Shown here one piece after another: positions 3,855 to 9,368 of a stretch of 26,831 bases of DNA (the stretch's first letter is position 1; each line of letters opens with the position of its first letter). Under the pieces are notes generated by a model that was given only the letters and a program-made list of their open reading frames with translations, made no database searches and was not told where the DNA came from. Source of the DNA: a virus. Location of the stretch: IMG/VR virus record IMGVR_UViG_3300031857_001146, positions 1 to 26,831 of that record, one strand, 5' to 3'. The position numbers and the translations under genes were made by a program.

Positions 3855-4739
3855 TTAAAAGTTAACTTCGCAGCTCTCAACGCAACCATCATCTAATTCA
3901 AGTTGAACTTTTTGTTCTTTGTAAATTACGGCATCATTTTCAGCTCGATCCCATCCACCGGCAATGTGCATTTCTCGTATATCAGATACAGACTTGTTTC
4001 CACGGAAAAATGTACGACTATATCCTTCAATATGATTTTTTAAAAACTCCGGCCCTACTGTTCCGTAATCACGCTCCATACGATCAAAAAAATCAAATGC
4101 TTCTGGAGTTTCATCCATAATCGTCAATAATTTTCTAAATGATTTTTTCCAGCAAGTTCGGCAGTTTCCCTGATAACCAGCAAGATTAAGACGAAAATCT
4201 TGTTTTTGCCAAAATGAATTTACATCTGGTTTTGATAGCGGTTGCCAGTCCATCAATGGATAAATTATTCCATTATTTTTAGAAGCCTGTGAACGGCGCT
4301 TGCTTTCGTCTGCACGAATTCCGATGGCAATTTCATAAGATCCACGTTTCCAACCTTTTTCTCGCAAAAGACTTTCCATTGGACGCAACTTTAACTCTCT
4401 AGTACATCCTGGAAACTTCTGATTAGGTATCCCGTATTTTTTAATAAATGCCTCAAAAGGCTCCCCATTGCGAGATGCAGTTTCAAATGTTACAAAACGA
4501 TGCTTTGTGCCGATTCTACCTTCCTGCGGAACCGCCTCGACCCATATTGTATTAAAACCAAAAGCAGCATCACAGTCGCGCACAAATTCCAGTGTAGCCT
4601 CATTTTCTTGACCAGTATTTGCAAATATAACTACAACATCAGCGTAACGATCTCGCCATTTTGATAACAGCAAATGAGTCATTAACGCAGACGTTTCCCC
4701 TCCGCTAAATGAAATGAATAGGTTTTTTTTGTTGCTCAC
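3855..4739 (-). CDS. PAPS-reductase-like PP-loop ATPase
   Basis: 294 residues. The PP-loop SGGETS is at residues 12-17, followed by NTGQENEATLEFV (41-53), typical of the PAPS reductase/adenine nucleotide alpha-hydrolase superfamily, which activates substrates by adenylation. GCTRELKLRP (111-120) and GNCRTCWKKS (191-200) supply C112, C193 and C196, with another pair C286/C290 at the end. The redox ECGLH motif of assimilatory CysH is absent, so sulfate assimilation is unlikely. Thiolation or other modification of nucleic acid, perhaps with a metal cluster held by these Cys, is an inference. It overlaps NinG by 4 bases in the early leftward operon. Confidence 0.85.
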   Translation of the reverse strand: MSNKKNLFISFSGGETSALMTHLLLSKWRDRYADVVVIFANTGQENEATLEFVRDCDAAFGFNTIWVEAVPQEGRIGTKHRFVTFETASRNGEPFEAFIKKYGIPNQKFPGCTRELKLRPMESLLREKGWKRGSYEIAIGIRADESKRRSQASKNNGIIYPLMDWQPLSKPDVNSFWQKQDFRLNLAGYQGNCRTCWKKSFRKLLTIMDETPEAFDFFDRMERDYGTVGPEFLKNHIEGYSRTFFRGNKSVSDIREMHIAGGWDRAENDAVIYKEQKVQLELDDGCVESCEVNF

Positions 4740-5967: not shown

Positions 5968-6316
5968 CCACGTTCCTTCGCATTTTGTTTAATAGTTCAT
6001 TAACCATCTTTTTAGTCTCTGGACTGTAAGATTTATTGGTATTGTCTGGAAGCATCAAAGCCTGTTTCCTAGCAGGTAAAACTCGAAAGAAATCACTAGG
6101 TGAAGGCCAAGAATCACACACAGCACAGAGTTCAGTAAAGCCTTTTTTTATTCTCTGAGAGTCTAATTCCTGATCCCATGCAATAGGTCTTGAACTAAAT
6201 ACGTCATGCCAAACAACAGCGGTCGCTTTTAACGTATCACTAGGTGGCGTATTTCTGAGTCTTAAAGCCATCAGTTTTTGGATACCTTCTACGATCTCAG
6301 CTTGTAGCCAGTTCAT
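5945..6316 (-). CDS. Replication-associated hypothetical protein (WPSPSDF type)
   Basis: 123 residues from ATG 6316, chosen because it overlaps the upstream TGA by 4 bases; the frame's earlier start at 6328 lies inside the previous gene without benefit. The centre CAVCDSWPSPSDFFRVLPARK (residues 84-104) is a pattern I associate with phage proteins encoded next to replication initiators or helicase loaders. The rest is helical. It is the second gene of the operon after a helicase-loader-like protein, which supports a replication role. I cannot name a biochemical activity. Confidence 0.65.
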   Translation of the reverse strand: MNWLQAEIVEGIQKLMALRLRNTPPSDTLKATAVVWHDVFSSRPIAWDQELDSQRIKKGFTELCAVCDSWPSPSDFFRVLPARKQALMLPDNTNKSYSPETKKMVNELLNKMRRNVDGSETQR

Positions 6317-6609
6317 GATCGTTTCCACTGTTCAAGAGCAACAATAGCACCCATCGTTTTACTTAGTGCTTTGGGTGCATCAATCTTTACTTCATCATCC
6401 CATCGCTCTTGTCGCAACCAAGTAGCAGGGTAAGGAATGTAAATTCCGTCATTCTCGATCCACTGTTGAGTATTTTTCTGGTTCTCAATCGCTTCCAGGA
6501 TTAAATCAAGTGACGGTCTGATTTTCTCTGTCTGTGTCCACGCTTTTCTTGCATCACCCTTTGCGACCTTACGAGGATAAGATTTCCAGAACGTATCGAA
6601 GTCTTCCAT
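6313..6609 (-). CDS. Helicase-loader/replication-protein C-terminal-type domain
   Basis: 98 residues. The sequence FWKSYPRKVAKGDARKAW (residues 7-24), then ILEAIENQKNTQQW and IYIPYPATWLRQERWDDE (56-73) is the domain usually seen at the C-terminus of phage replication proteins that recruit or load the host helicase. Here it stands alone without an origin-binding N-terminal domain, so it may be a minimal loader or may act with the coupled gene at 5945-6316. GGAGA precedes its ATG, and a good promoter candidate lies at 6635-6664. It is the first protein of the early leftward operon. With no polymerase or helicase seen, replication probably relies on host enzymes. Confidence 0.75.
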   Translation of the reverse strand: MEDFDTFWKSYPRKVAKGDARKAWTQTEKIRPSLDLILEAIENQKNTQQWIENDGIYIPYPATWLRQERWDDEVKIDAPKALSKTMGAIVALEQWKRS

Positions 6610-6634
6610 GTTGTCTCCGTTTTTAAGAGTCTTC

Positions 6635-6664
6635 AGGATAATCGTTCTTTTTTAACAATGTCAA
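6635..6664 (-). promoter_or_regulatory. Sigma70-like promoter for leftward early operon
   Basis: TTGACA (6664-6659), 18-base spacer, TATCCT (6640-6635), with the expected start about 20 bases before the ATG at 6609. The TTGACAT, TGTTAAA and ACGAT words are shared with the rightward promoter at 7112-7140. The position lets the operon start after the structured block at 6689-7045. Confidence 0.6.
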
Positions 6665-6688
6665 TCTTTTTTTTGAATAGACCAACCA

Positions 6689-7045
6689 CGAAACTTGCGT
6701 TTCGGTAACTCATCCATACTTCGGATATGCAAGGTGTCGTATCAAGTAACCACTCTCTGAACGCTGGCCTTGACCAGTTGGTTCGGGTATGGCAGGTGTC
6801 TTCCCTGGCTCCGCAGCTACTTATCCTGCGGCCTCTACCCCGACTGTTGCCTTCTTGCTTACGCACTGGCTTTTCGTGCGGCCAATGAAAAACCCTTTAC
6901 GGCGGGGTTCAGGTCGTGGCTAGGAGAAGCGCAAATCAAAGAAAGTCGCTTTCCTGACCAAAACCCCTGCGTAAAGGGTCATTCTTTGATTCACGCTCCG
7001 CCACAGAGCGACCTGTATTCACAGGCAAAACGATTCTCTACGTTT
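6689..7045 (-). ncRNA. Candidate structured RNA with H-type pseudoknot
   Basis: A protein-free block made almost wholly of perfect stem-loops. Arms: 6689-6694/6699-6704, 6811-6816/6826-6831, 6862-6866/6876-6880, 6994-6998/7006-7010, 7012-7016/7021-7025 and 7028-7032/7041-7045. The core is a long stem: 6892-6901 with 6970-6979 (10 bp), then GGGGTT/AACCCC, CAGG/CCTG and AAGCG/CGCTT. Ten bases of its apical loop (6934-6943) pair perfectly with 6982-6991 outside the stem, which is a pseudoknot. Read from the minus strand the loops are purine-rich and the 6689 hairpin has a GNRA loop (GCAA), so I assign minus. The ends are approximate. I do not match it to a known class; an origin of replication is the main alternative. 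Confidence 0.6.
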
Positions 7046-7111
7046 CAGTAATTATTTGCAAGTATTTTTCTACTTTTTTATAGTTCGTTGATTATTAAGC
7101 GAAAATAGTTG

Positions 7112-7140
7112 TTGACATACTGTTAAACTACGATCAGAAT
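7112..7140 (+). promoter_or_regulatory. Sigma70-like promoter for rightward early operon
   Basis: Consensus TTGACA at 7112-7117, 17-base spacer, then CAGAAT (4 of 6 to the -10 consensus) at 7135-7140. The first gene starts 48 bases later with AGGAGA. It lies in the gap between the structured RNA block and the rightward operon. Confidence 0.6.
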
Positions 7141-7185
7141 GTCTCCACGGTCGAAACCTGAAGACCGGATGAAAAACAGGAGACA
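7140..7185 (+). promoter_or_regulatory. Inverted repeat enclosing the first ribosome site of the rightward operon
   Basis: TGTCTCC (7140-7146) is the perfect inverse of GGAGACA (7179-7185), which contains the Shine-Dalgarno for the gene at 7188. An inner stem CGGTC/GACCG (7148-7152/7163-7167) stacks inside. In a transcript starting upstream this would hide the ribosome site. If transcription starts near 7147 the outer arm is lost and the repeat may instead be a DNA operator. Confidence 0.4.
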
Positions 7186-7187
7186 GA

Positions 7188-7367
7188 ATGAATTGCAAAT
7201 GCAATGTTTACAAGTTCCCGCACCGTCCTGGTAGCGGAGGCTGCAAGATTCCGAAATGTTCAGAGTGCGAATACGGGCGTGTAGAAAAAGACCCGTTCGG
7301 AACTGGCGATAAACGATACACTGAAATCCACTGTTTAGCTCTTAAATGTCCGTGGGGGAAGCAATGA
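7188..7367 (+). CDS. Cys-rich small protein, first of rightward operon
   Basis: 59 residues with seven Cys (C3, C5, C19, C24, C27, C49, C54) and two His, a density that indicates metal binding, probably zinc. GGCKIPKCSECEYG (residues 17-30) is the most knuckle-like part. AGGAGA lies just before the ATG. Its stop overlaps the next start (ATGA). I do not recognise the family. As the first gene behind the early promoter and under a possible RNA switch, it may be regulatory, which is inference. Confidence 0.65.
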   Translation: MNCKCNVYKFPHRPGSGGCKIPKCSECEYGRVEKDPFGTGDKRYTEIHCLALKCPWGKQ

Positions 7368-9291: not shown

Positions 9292-9368
9292 ACGGGCGTA
9301 TTCCAATCGGCAGAGAAAGAGAACTTAAAATTCTCAAAGTGTGAGTTCGAATCTCACCGCCCGTACCA
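9292..9368 (+). tRNA. tRNA-Leu (anticodon TAA) with five-base variable loop
   Basis: The acceptor arm ACGGGCG pairs with CGCCCGT (9358-9364), followed by A73 and an encoded CCA. D-loop AATCGGCAGA is nearly identical to bacterial tRNA-Leu(UAA). Anticodon stem GAGAA/TTCTC (9319-9323/9331-9335) encloses CTTAAAA, with anticodon TAA at 9326-9328. The T arm is GTGAG-TTCGAAT-CTCAC. Between anticodon and T stems are only five bases (9336-9340, AAAGT), whereas bacterial tRNA-Leu has a long variable arm. It would read UUA/UUG. The D stem has only three good pairs. It lies inside the rightward early operon. Confidence 0.9.

Follow-up and report, generated by a model that had tools for sequence, protein, structure and literature searches.

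Described phage RNAs and the window locus

The HK022 put RNA and the lambda PR'-tR' 6S RNA are short promoter-proximal phage RNAs that lie ahead of an operon, and in the ColE1 RNA I/RNA II pair fast-evolving complementary loops set the specificity of replication control. Pairing of the P4 CI RNA with seqA and seqC terminates the replication operon, and this RNA is the carrier of an RNA-borne immunity (PMC4825925), c4 RNA is the basis of P1/P7 heteroimmunity (PMC12197685) and many members of the GOLLD class exceed 800 nt (PMC12286853). The locus described here lies in the virus record IMGVR_UViG_3300031857_001146, the whole of which (26,831 bp) was analyzed and is referred to below as the window. 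A first-pass annotation had proposed that positions 6689-7045 hold one new structured RNA in which pairings cross. A structured RNA is supported here, but not as a single unit: the block consists of module 1 (6887-7027), a predicted promoter-to-terminator RNA carrying two complementary segments (the arm and arm'), and module 2 (approximately 6700-6886), a second structured region.

Like P4 CI, module 1 is predicted to be an untranslated RNA lying upstream of replication genes, with complementary segments inside one leader and with termination; a counterpart to the RNA-borne specificity of P4 CI is proposed. However, P4 CI arises by processing of a leader and has seqA/seqC as its pairing partners, whereas module 1 is a promoter-terminator RNA with both arms in a terminator-loop pseudoknot, and the two do not match in sequence. 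The loops of c4 RNA (RF01695), which is also a small RNA of phages, contain complementary segments, but c4 pairs with ant mRNA at the ribosome binding site. In the 13 records searched for partners of the arms, no match elsewhere in the same record, including near a downstream ribosome binding site, was clearly beyond chance length (the longest, 12 nt in contig L117, falls in an A-rich stretch), and a trans target elsewhere in the phage was rejected on this basis. By these tests, module 1 belongs to neither the P4 CI nor the c4 type. GOLLD and ROOL resemble it in being phage-borne, in having no known protein and in their covarying loop-loop pairings, but they are much longer, and the hypervariable arm pair and terminator belong to module 1. 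The put and 6S RNAs share its promoter-proximal position but are without hypervariable self-complementary arms, while ColE1 uses two RNAs from opposite strands and module 1 has both arms on one RNA.

Database searches were consistent with these comparisons. Rfam gave no match for the whole window at gathering score, for 6600-7200 up to E = 5, or for relatives L002-L005, L088 and L082 up to E = 2. The covariance models of GOLLD and ROOL, from which the first-pass annotation had already separated the block, and of the C4 antisense RNA (RF01695) were unmatched in the window, 6600-7200 and the relatives tested, and those of the group I intron core (Intron_gpI) and HEARO/IscB omega RNA were unmatched in the window and relatives tested. 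No named phage matched the window block in a blastn search. Our covariance model of module 1 (R1) had no match within the 6 kb searched of Methylophilales phage MEP301 (which has the nearest ERF protein, 66%) or, in a search that carries little weight, in three bacterial genomes. A pattern scan of bacterial genomes returned 98 chance-like matches; among the matches listed, many represent one Streptomyces coding region. Literature searches retrieved no description of an RNA of this type.

Structure and covariation of module 1

Homologues were collected by neighboring-gene searches and with two DNA patterns in viral contigs. Module 1 was found in 35 viral contigs, all metagenomic, of which 22 are distinct over the core, and R1 recovers complete members at 111-151 bits. 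The core has a P1 hairpin, a P3 hairpin, the variable arm, a long stem with arm' in its apical loop and a U-run, in that order. The features in the window, all on the minus strand, are as follows.

6887-7027 (-): module 1, an RNA of approximately 141 nt from the predicted +1 to the terminator U-run (22 distinct homologues; the window scores 139.8 bits with R1)
7033-7061 (-): module 1 promoter, sigma70-like, with TTGCAA and GAGAAT 17 nt apart; the window copy is weak; in fixed register
7011-7026 (-): P1 hairpin, GCCUGU/ACAGGU; pairs kept, with two-sided changes (to GUCCGA/UCGGGC)
6994-7010 (-): P3 hairpin, CGCUC/GAGCG, with a UGUGGYG loop that is invariant except for Y
6982-6992 (-): hypervariable arm, 5' strand of pseudoknot PK1 (arm/arm' helix, covariation)
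6933-6943 (-): hypervariable arm', 3' strand of PK1, in the apical loop of the terminator stem (arm/arm' helix, covariation)
6970-6979 (-): outer terminator stem, 5' strand ACCCUUUACG; nine positions paired in 22/22, with several Watson-Crick types
6892-6901 (-): 3' strand of the outer terminator stem, CGUAAAGGGU, after which comes the U-run (same pairing as 6970-6979)
6888-6892 (-): terminator U-run, from the sequence; present in all complete members
6962-6967 (-): middle stem, 5' strand GGGGUU, partner of 6904-6909; outermost pair G-C in 4, U-A in 15 and C-G in 3 (22/22; E = 0.001)
6904-6909 (-): middle stem, 3' strand AACCCC (covariation with 6962-6967)
6999-7004 (-): P3-loop GUGGYG, 5' strand of a second pseudoknot, PK2; pairs with CRCCRC
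6916-6921 (-): CRCCRC segment, partner of the P3 loop (PK2) or of YGGU at 6957-6960 (ALT), mutually exclusive; both pairings kept

Both pairings on which the first-pass annotation relied are present: the long stem 6892-6901/6970-6979, and the loop pairing 6934-6943/6982-6991, which extends to 6933-6943/6982-6992. A covariance model and a covariation analysis, the checks suggested at the time, gave strong covariation. The two pairings occur in 22/22 distinct homologues (shorter in a few) with compensatory changes in both stems, and among these homologues neither conserved coding, nor loss of the pairings, nor a lack of covariation was encountered. An arm forms a helix with its own arm' of 10.5 bp on average, compared with 5.8 bp for arms and arm' segments from different sequences (permutation p < 5e-5). 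Covariation was tested with our own script, which approximates R-scape but is not R-scape itself, using a curated alignment and a tree-based null in which columns were re-evolved independently with the observed change counts. Of 1225 column pairs, 12 reached E < 0.5, and every one of these belongs to a proposed helix (E from 0.0006 to 0.14): seven to the arm pairing (PK1, E 0.0006-0.14), two to the outer terminator stem, and one each to the middle stem, P1 and ALT.

The helix cells, read in the minus-strand sense, comprise 724 Watson-Crick pairs, 80 G-U, one A-C and nine others. Because G-U outnumbers A-C by 80 to 1, the RNA is read from the minus strand, as the first-pass annotation had supposed and as the fixed register of the promoter also indicates; a DNA cruciform is unlikely, as it would not produce such a skew. 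Over 6660-7070 the minus strand has a folding z-score of -3.9 (0/100 shuffles as good) and the plus strand -2.45. Two open reading frames (ORFs) overlap the block (6633-6866, minus strand, and 6770-7051, plus strand), but neither is kept in relatives, where the arms and the P1 loop vary in length by non-multiples of three; the earlier view that the block holds no credible gene is borne out. Coding or chance as an origin of the block was rejected given the ORFs that are not kept, the folding z-score and the confinement of covariation to helices. Comparison of the homologues demonstrates the predicted fold and its strand, the terminator stem, the arm/arm' and P3-loop pairings and the covarying alternative inner pairings.

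The promoter is of the canonical TTGACA-17 form upstream of module 1 in L091, L103, L117, L118, L120 and L154. The distance from the end of the -10 element to the RNA start is the same in 18 of 19 distinct upstream regions, and promoter scores average 8.5 of 12 as opposed to 6.4 in shuffles. A G+C-rich stem followed by a U-run lies downstream of the promoter, and the long stem and U-run are predicted to be an elaborate intrinsic terminator. A further pairing, between GGUC on the 3' side of P1 and the 3' GACC, was dropped because L117, L118 and L154 keep GACC without GGUC.

Alternative pairings

The first five GUGGYG/CRCCRC pairs of PK2 are formed in 22/22 sequences, with the Y-R pair C-G in 13, U-A in 6 and U-G in 3. 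ALT, in which CRCCRC pairs with the mid YGGU, is likewise possible in 22/22 (one pair is U-A in 14 and C-G in 8; E = 0.14). PK2 and ALT exclude each other because both use CRCCRC. The full inner stem and the arm pseudoknot are also probably mutually exclusive, since 2 nt connect the arm to the foot of a stem some 25 bp long and arm' lies at the tip of that stem, a conflict that is our own geometric estimate. Mean energies, with loop and pseudoknot costs left out, are -19.5 kcal/mol for the inner stem and -20.5 kcal/mol for the PK1 and PK2 duplexes. We infer that module 1 may be bistable, its two states being nearly equal in energy. One of them, the open state, would have a closed inner stem (ALT and P4), with arm' displayed as a loop and the arm free; in the other, the paired state, the arm-arm' and P3 loop-CRCCRC pairings would form, within a single molecule or between two copies. 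Neither state, in this model, requires the outer terminator stem to open.

Hypervariable arms

Between closely related phages, module 1 is nearly frozen outside the arms. Differences outside and inside the arms number 0/94 and 9/31 sites between the window and L103, 2/95 and 8/27 between L092 and L138, and 1/94 and 8/27 between L091 and L103. In seven close phage pairs, 26/58 arm sites were changed, in comparison with 8.8 expected from 4-fold sites of the neighboring genes (p = 2.5e-6), or approximately three times the 4-fold-site change; this count uses one strand of the core arm only, with pairs and core limits chosen by us. The arms are therefore likely to be under diversifying selection, judging from these comparisons. 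Arms that change fastest and yet stay complementary are a clean signature, one not readily expected of a helix under ordinary neutral drift.

Other families with the same layout

At least three further sequence families appear to share the module 1 layout, and may have common ancestry with the window RNA. Weak R1 matches (E 0.01-0.16 in a search of seven loci) were obtained in L006, L008, L012, L048, L061 and L062, after which the same layout was recognized by eye at matching places in L048/L061/L266/L271/L273 and in L006/L008/L012; subfamilies II and III were likewise assigned by eye. A short form (subfamily IV), in which the arm lies in the loop of a GUUG...CAAC hairpin, was found with a pattern that did not include arm'. 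Of 55 distinct subfamily IV sequences with a terminator, 98% hold the full 6-nt complement of the arm in the terminator loop, compared with 44% of cross pairs (0/5000 permutations as good), and only 12 arm alleles are used. On a flank tree of 72 sequences, at least 36 allele changes are required (minimum 11, shuffled mean 48). MW202484 (Manatee Spring) is the only named phage in which subfamily IV occurs together with module 2 of type C, at MW202484.1 33511-33693 (L281). The hypothetical protein annotated across this locus is probably spurious.

Possible functions of module 1

Our tentative preference is for module 1 as a promoter-to-terminator RNA with two exclusive folds, whose arms would serve RNA-RNA self-recognition in the control of read-through or replication. 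On this view the arms would be a specificity tag that exists in alleles and lets RNAs from copies of one phage recognize each other; they are read as such a tag because only the arms diversify fast while remaining complementary and because one family reuses few arm alleles. In the likeliest use, RNA that has already been made would control read-through or replication, as copy control or superinfection immunity, and phages with another arm allele would escape this control. A broader proposal, possible though doubtful, is that such RNA-only allelic self-recognition is widespread, with each phage carrying one self-complementary arm allele in a bistable terminator RNA, with diversifying selection and swapping of alleles, and with alleles setting which phages co-replicate in a cell.

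Several points weigh against the preference for self-recognition. Its support is sequence comparison of metagenomic contigs. The energy comparison ignores loop and pseudoknot costs. Some close pairs share their arms (L105/L093 and L109/L090). The arm count could be inflated by recombination around module 1, import of module 1 from distant phages with its constant parts held by selection could mimic fast arms, and template-switch correction of inverted repeats could maintain arm complementarity without selection for recognition.

A cis-acting leader is also conceivable but somewhat more doubtful: module 1 would be an attenuator or riboswitch-like element deciding between termination and read-through into module 2 and the following gene, and the arms a freely drifting structural helix. 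Its position between a promoter and variable downstream ORFs, with a terminator at its end, fits this explanation, as do the two exclusive, covarying sets of inner pairings and the conserved UGUGGYG and CGACC, which could bind a ligand or protein. However, the outer terminator stem can persist in both states, so that the switch need not alter termination; the arms change faster than 4-fold sites, the downstream genes differ and the replication genes have a promoter of their own. An unlikely possibility is a self-assembling structural RNA in the style of GOLLD, ROOL or phi29 pRNA, in which an arm pairs with the arm' of the next molecule to give dimers, rings or cages and the variable arms keep assemblies phage-specific. 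By our estimate, the full stem, with the arm 2 nt from the base of about 25 bp and arm' at the tip, conflicts with pairing in cis, and GOLLD, ROOL and OLE multimerize via covarying kissing loops (PMC12286853), but the RNA is small and an opened inner stem would permit pairing in cis.

It is improbable that module 1 is a processive antitermination leader similar to HK022 put, in which the folded RNA binds its own polymerase and passes later terminators of the early operon. Module 1 would be the first RNA from a promoter ahead of early genes, but it carries its own terminator, and hypervariable arms are unexpected of a put-like RNA. Least credible, and very improbable, is an element that works as DNA, with inverted repeats at a replication origin or operator and incidental RNA pairing: although the block adjoins a replication initiator-like gene, the 80 to 1 ratio of G-U to A-C in helices, the crossing pairings and the promoter and U-run in register all argue otherwise. 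Action in RNA form, which the first-pass annotation had entertained, is favored. Its other suggestion, a mark of the replication origin, may still hold, its one point of contact being that the RNA sits just ahead of the phage replication gene.

Module 2 and downstream genes

6700-6886 (-): second structured RNA region, located past the terminator; module 2 of type A, with an approximate 3' end (seven relatives; 39 pairs predicted by RNAalifold, 13 changed on both sides)

Module 2 is exchanged among relatives at a fixed junction after the U-run, and at least four structured types (A-D) were distinguished. Type A is found in the window, L096, L101, L103, L125 and L144, type B in L090, L126, L048 and L269, type C in L092, L097, L062, L006 and others, and type D in L110; types B and C also occur behind other forms of module 1. 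RNAalifold gave two-sided changes in 20/34 pairs for type C and in 9/30 for type B, the latter on a poor alignment. Some copies of module 2 carry a ribosome-site-like GGGGAANCTATG followed by an ORF, whereas the window has none and the replication promoter follows directly.

The downstream genes vary (HNH, nuclease-like, DUF5710-like, methyltransferase (MTase)-like or none). The ORFs named by eye include an HNH nuclease-like ORF of 184-188 aa directly after type B (L002 3591-4157 and L004 1077-1631, both on the minus strand), a PD-(D/E)XK-like ORF after type C in L092/L098/L109, a DUF5710-like ORF after module 2 in L110 and, in L118, a GIY-YIG-like ORF that directly follows the terminator of module 1. 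As downstream ORFs differ or are absent, a 5' untranslated region (UTR) of one fixed gene was rejected, and the arrangement of a riboswitch, with the same aptamer before functionally related genes, was not observed among them. A further element of approximately 110 nt (AAGCCAAGCCGATAGTGGCTG...GCAGGG...CCCTGC) lies 3' of module 2 in L003, L004, L005, L088, L101, L105 and L144 and is absent from the window; compensatory changes seen by eye are GCCGAU/AUCGGC to GCCGGU/ACCGGC and GCAGGG/CCCUGC to GCAGAG/CUCUGC.

Gene neighborhood

6635-6664 (-): replication operon promoter, TTGACA-18-TATCCT, following closely on module 2
6313-6609 (-): replication initiation protein-like gene, first gene downstream of the block and head of the leftward operon (PHROG 270, E = 6.8e-22)

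The block is flanked by a leftward (replication side) and a rightward operon, the latter encoding an ERF annealing protein and a YqaJ exonuclease, and module 1 lies a short way ahead of the replication genes and shares their orientation. The rightward operon also contains a tRNA-Leu (TAA) gene at 9292-9368 (plus strand), and tRNAs were found in the corresponding region of L003, L004 and L005. In the left operon, a PAPS reductase-like protein (3855-4739, minus strand) adjoins a NinG-like nuclease. Tandem CTTGAAGCCACC repeats lie between the divergent promoter and module 1 in L003 and L089 and are absent from the window.

Implications

On the comparative evidence, aquatic phages encode a predicted RNA of the module 1 type next to their replication genes. 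Two pattern scans of viral contigs yielded tens of distinct sequences; this class of phage RNA is unlisted and appears to be common. Should the arms prove to be specificity tags, compatibility in co-infection among aquatic phages would be readable from about ten bases.
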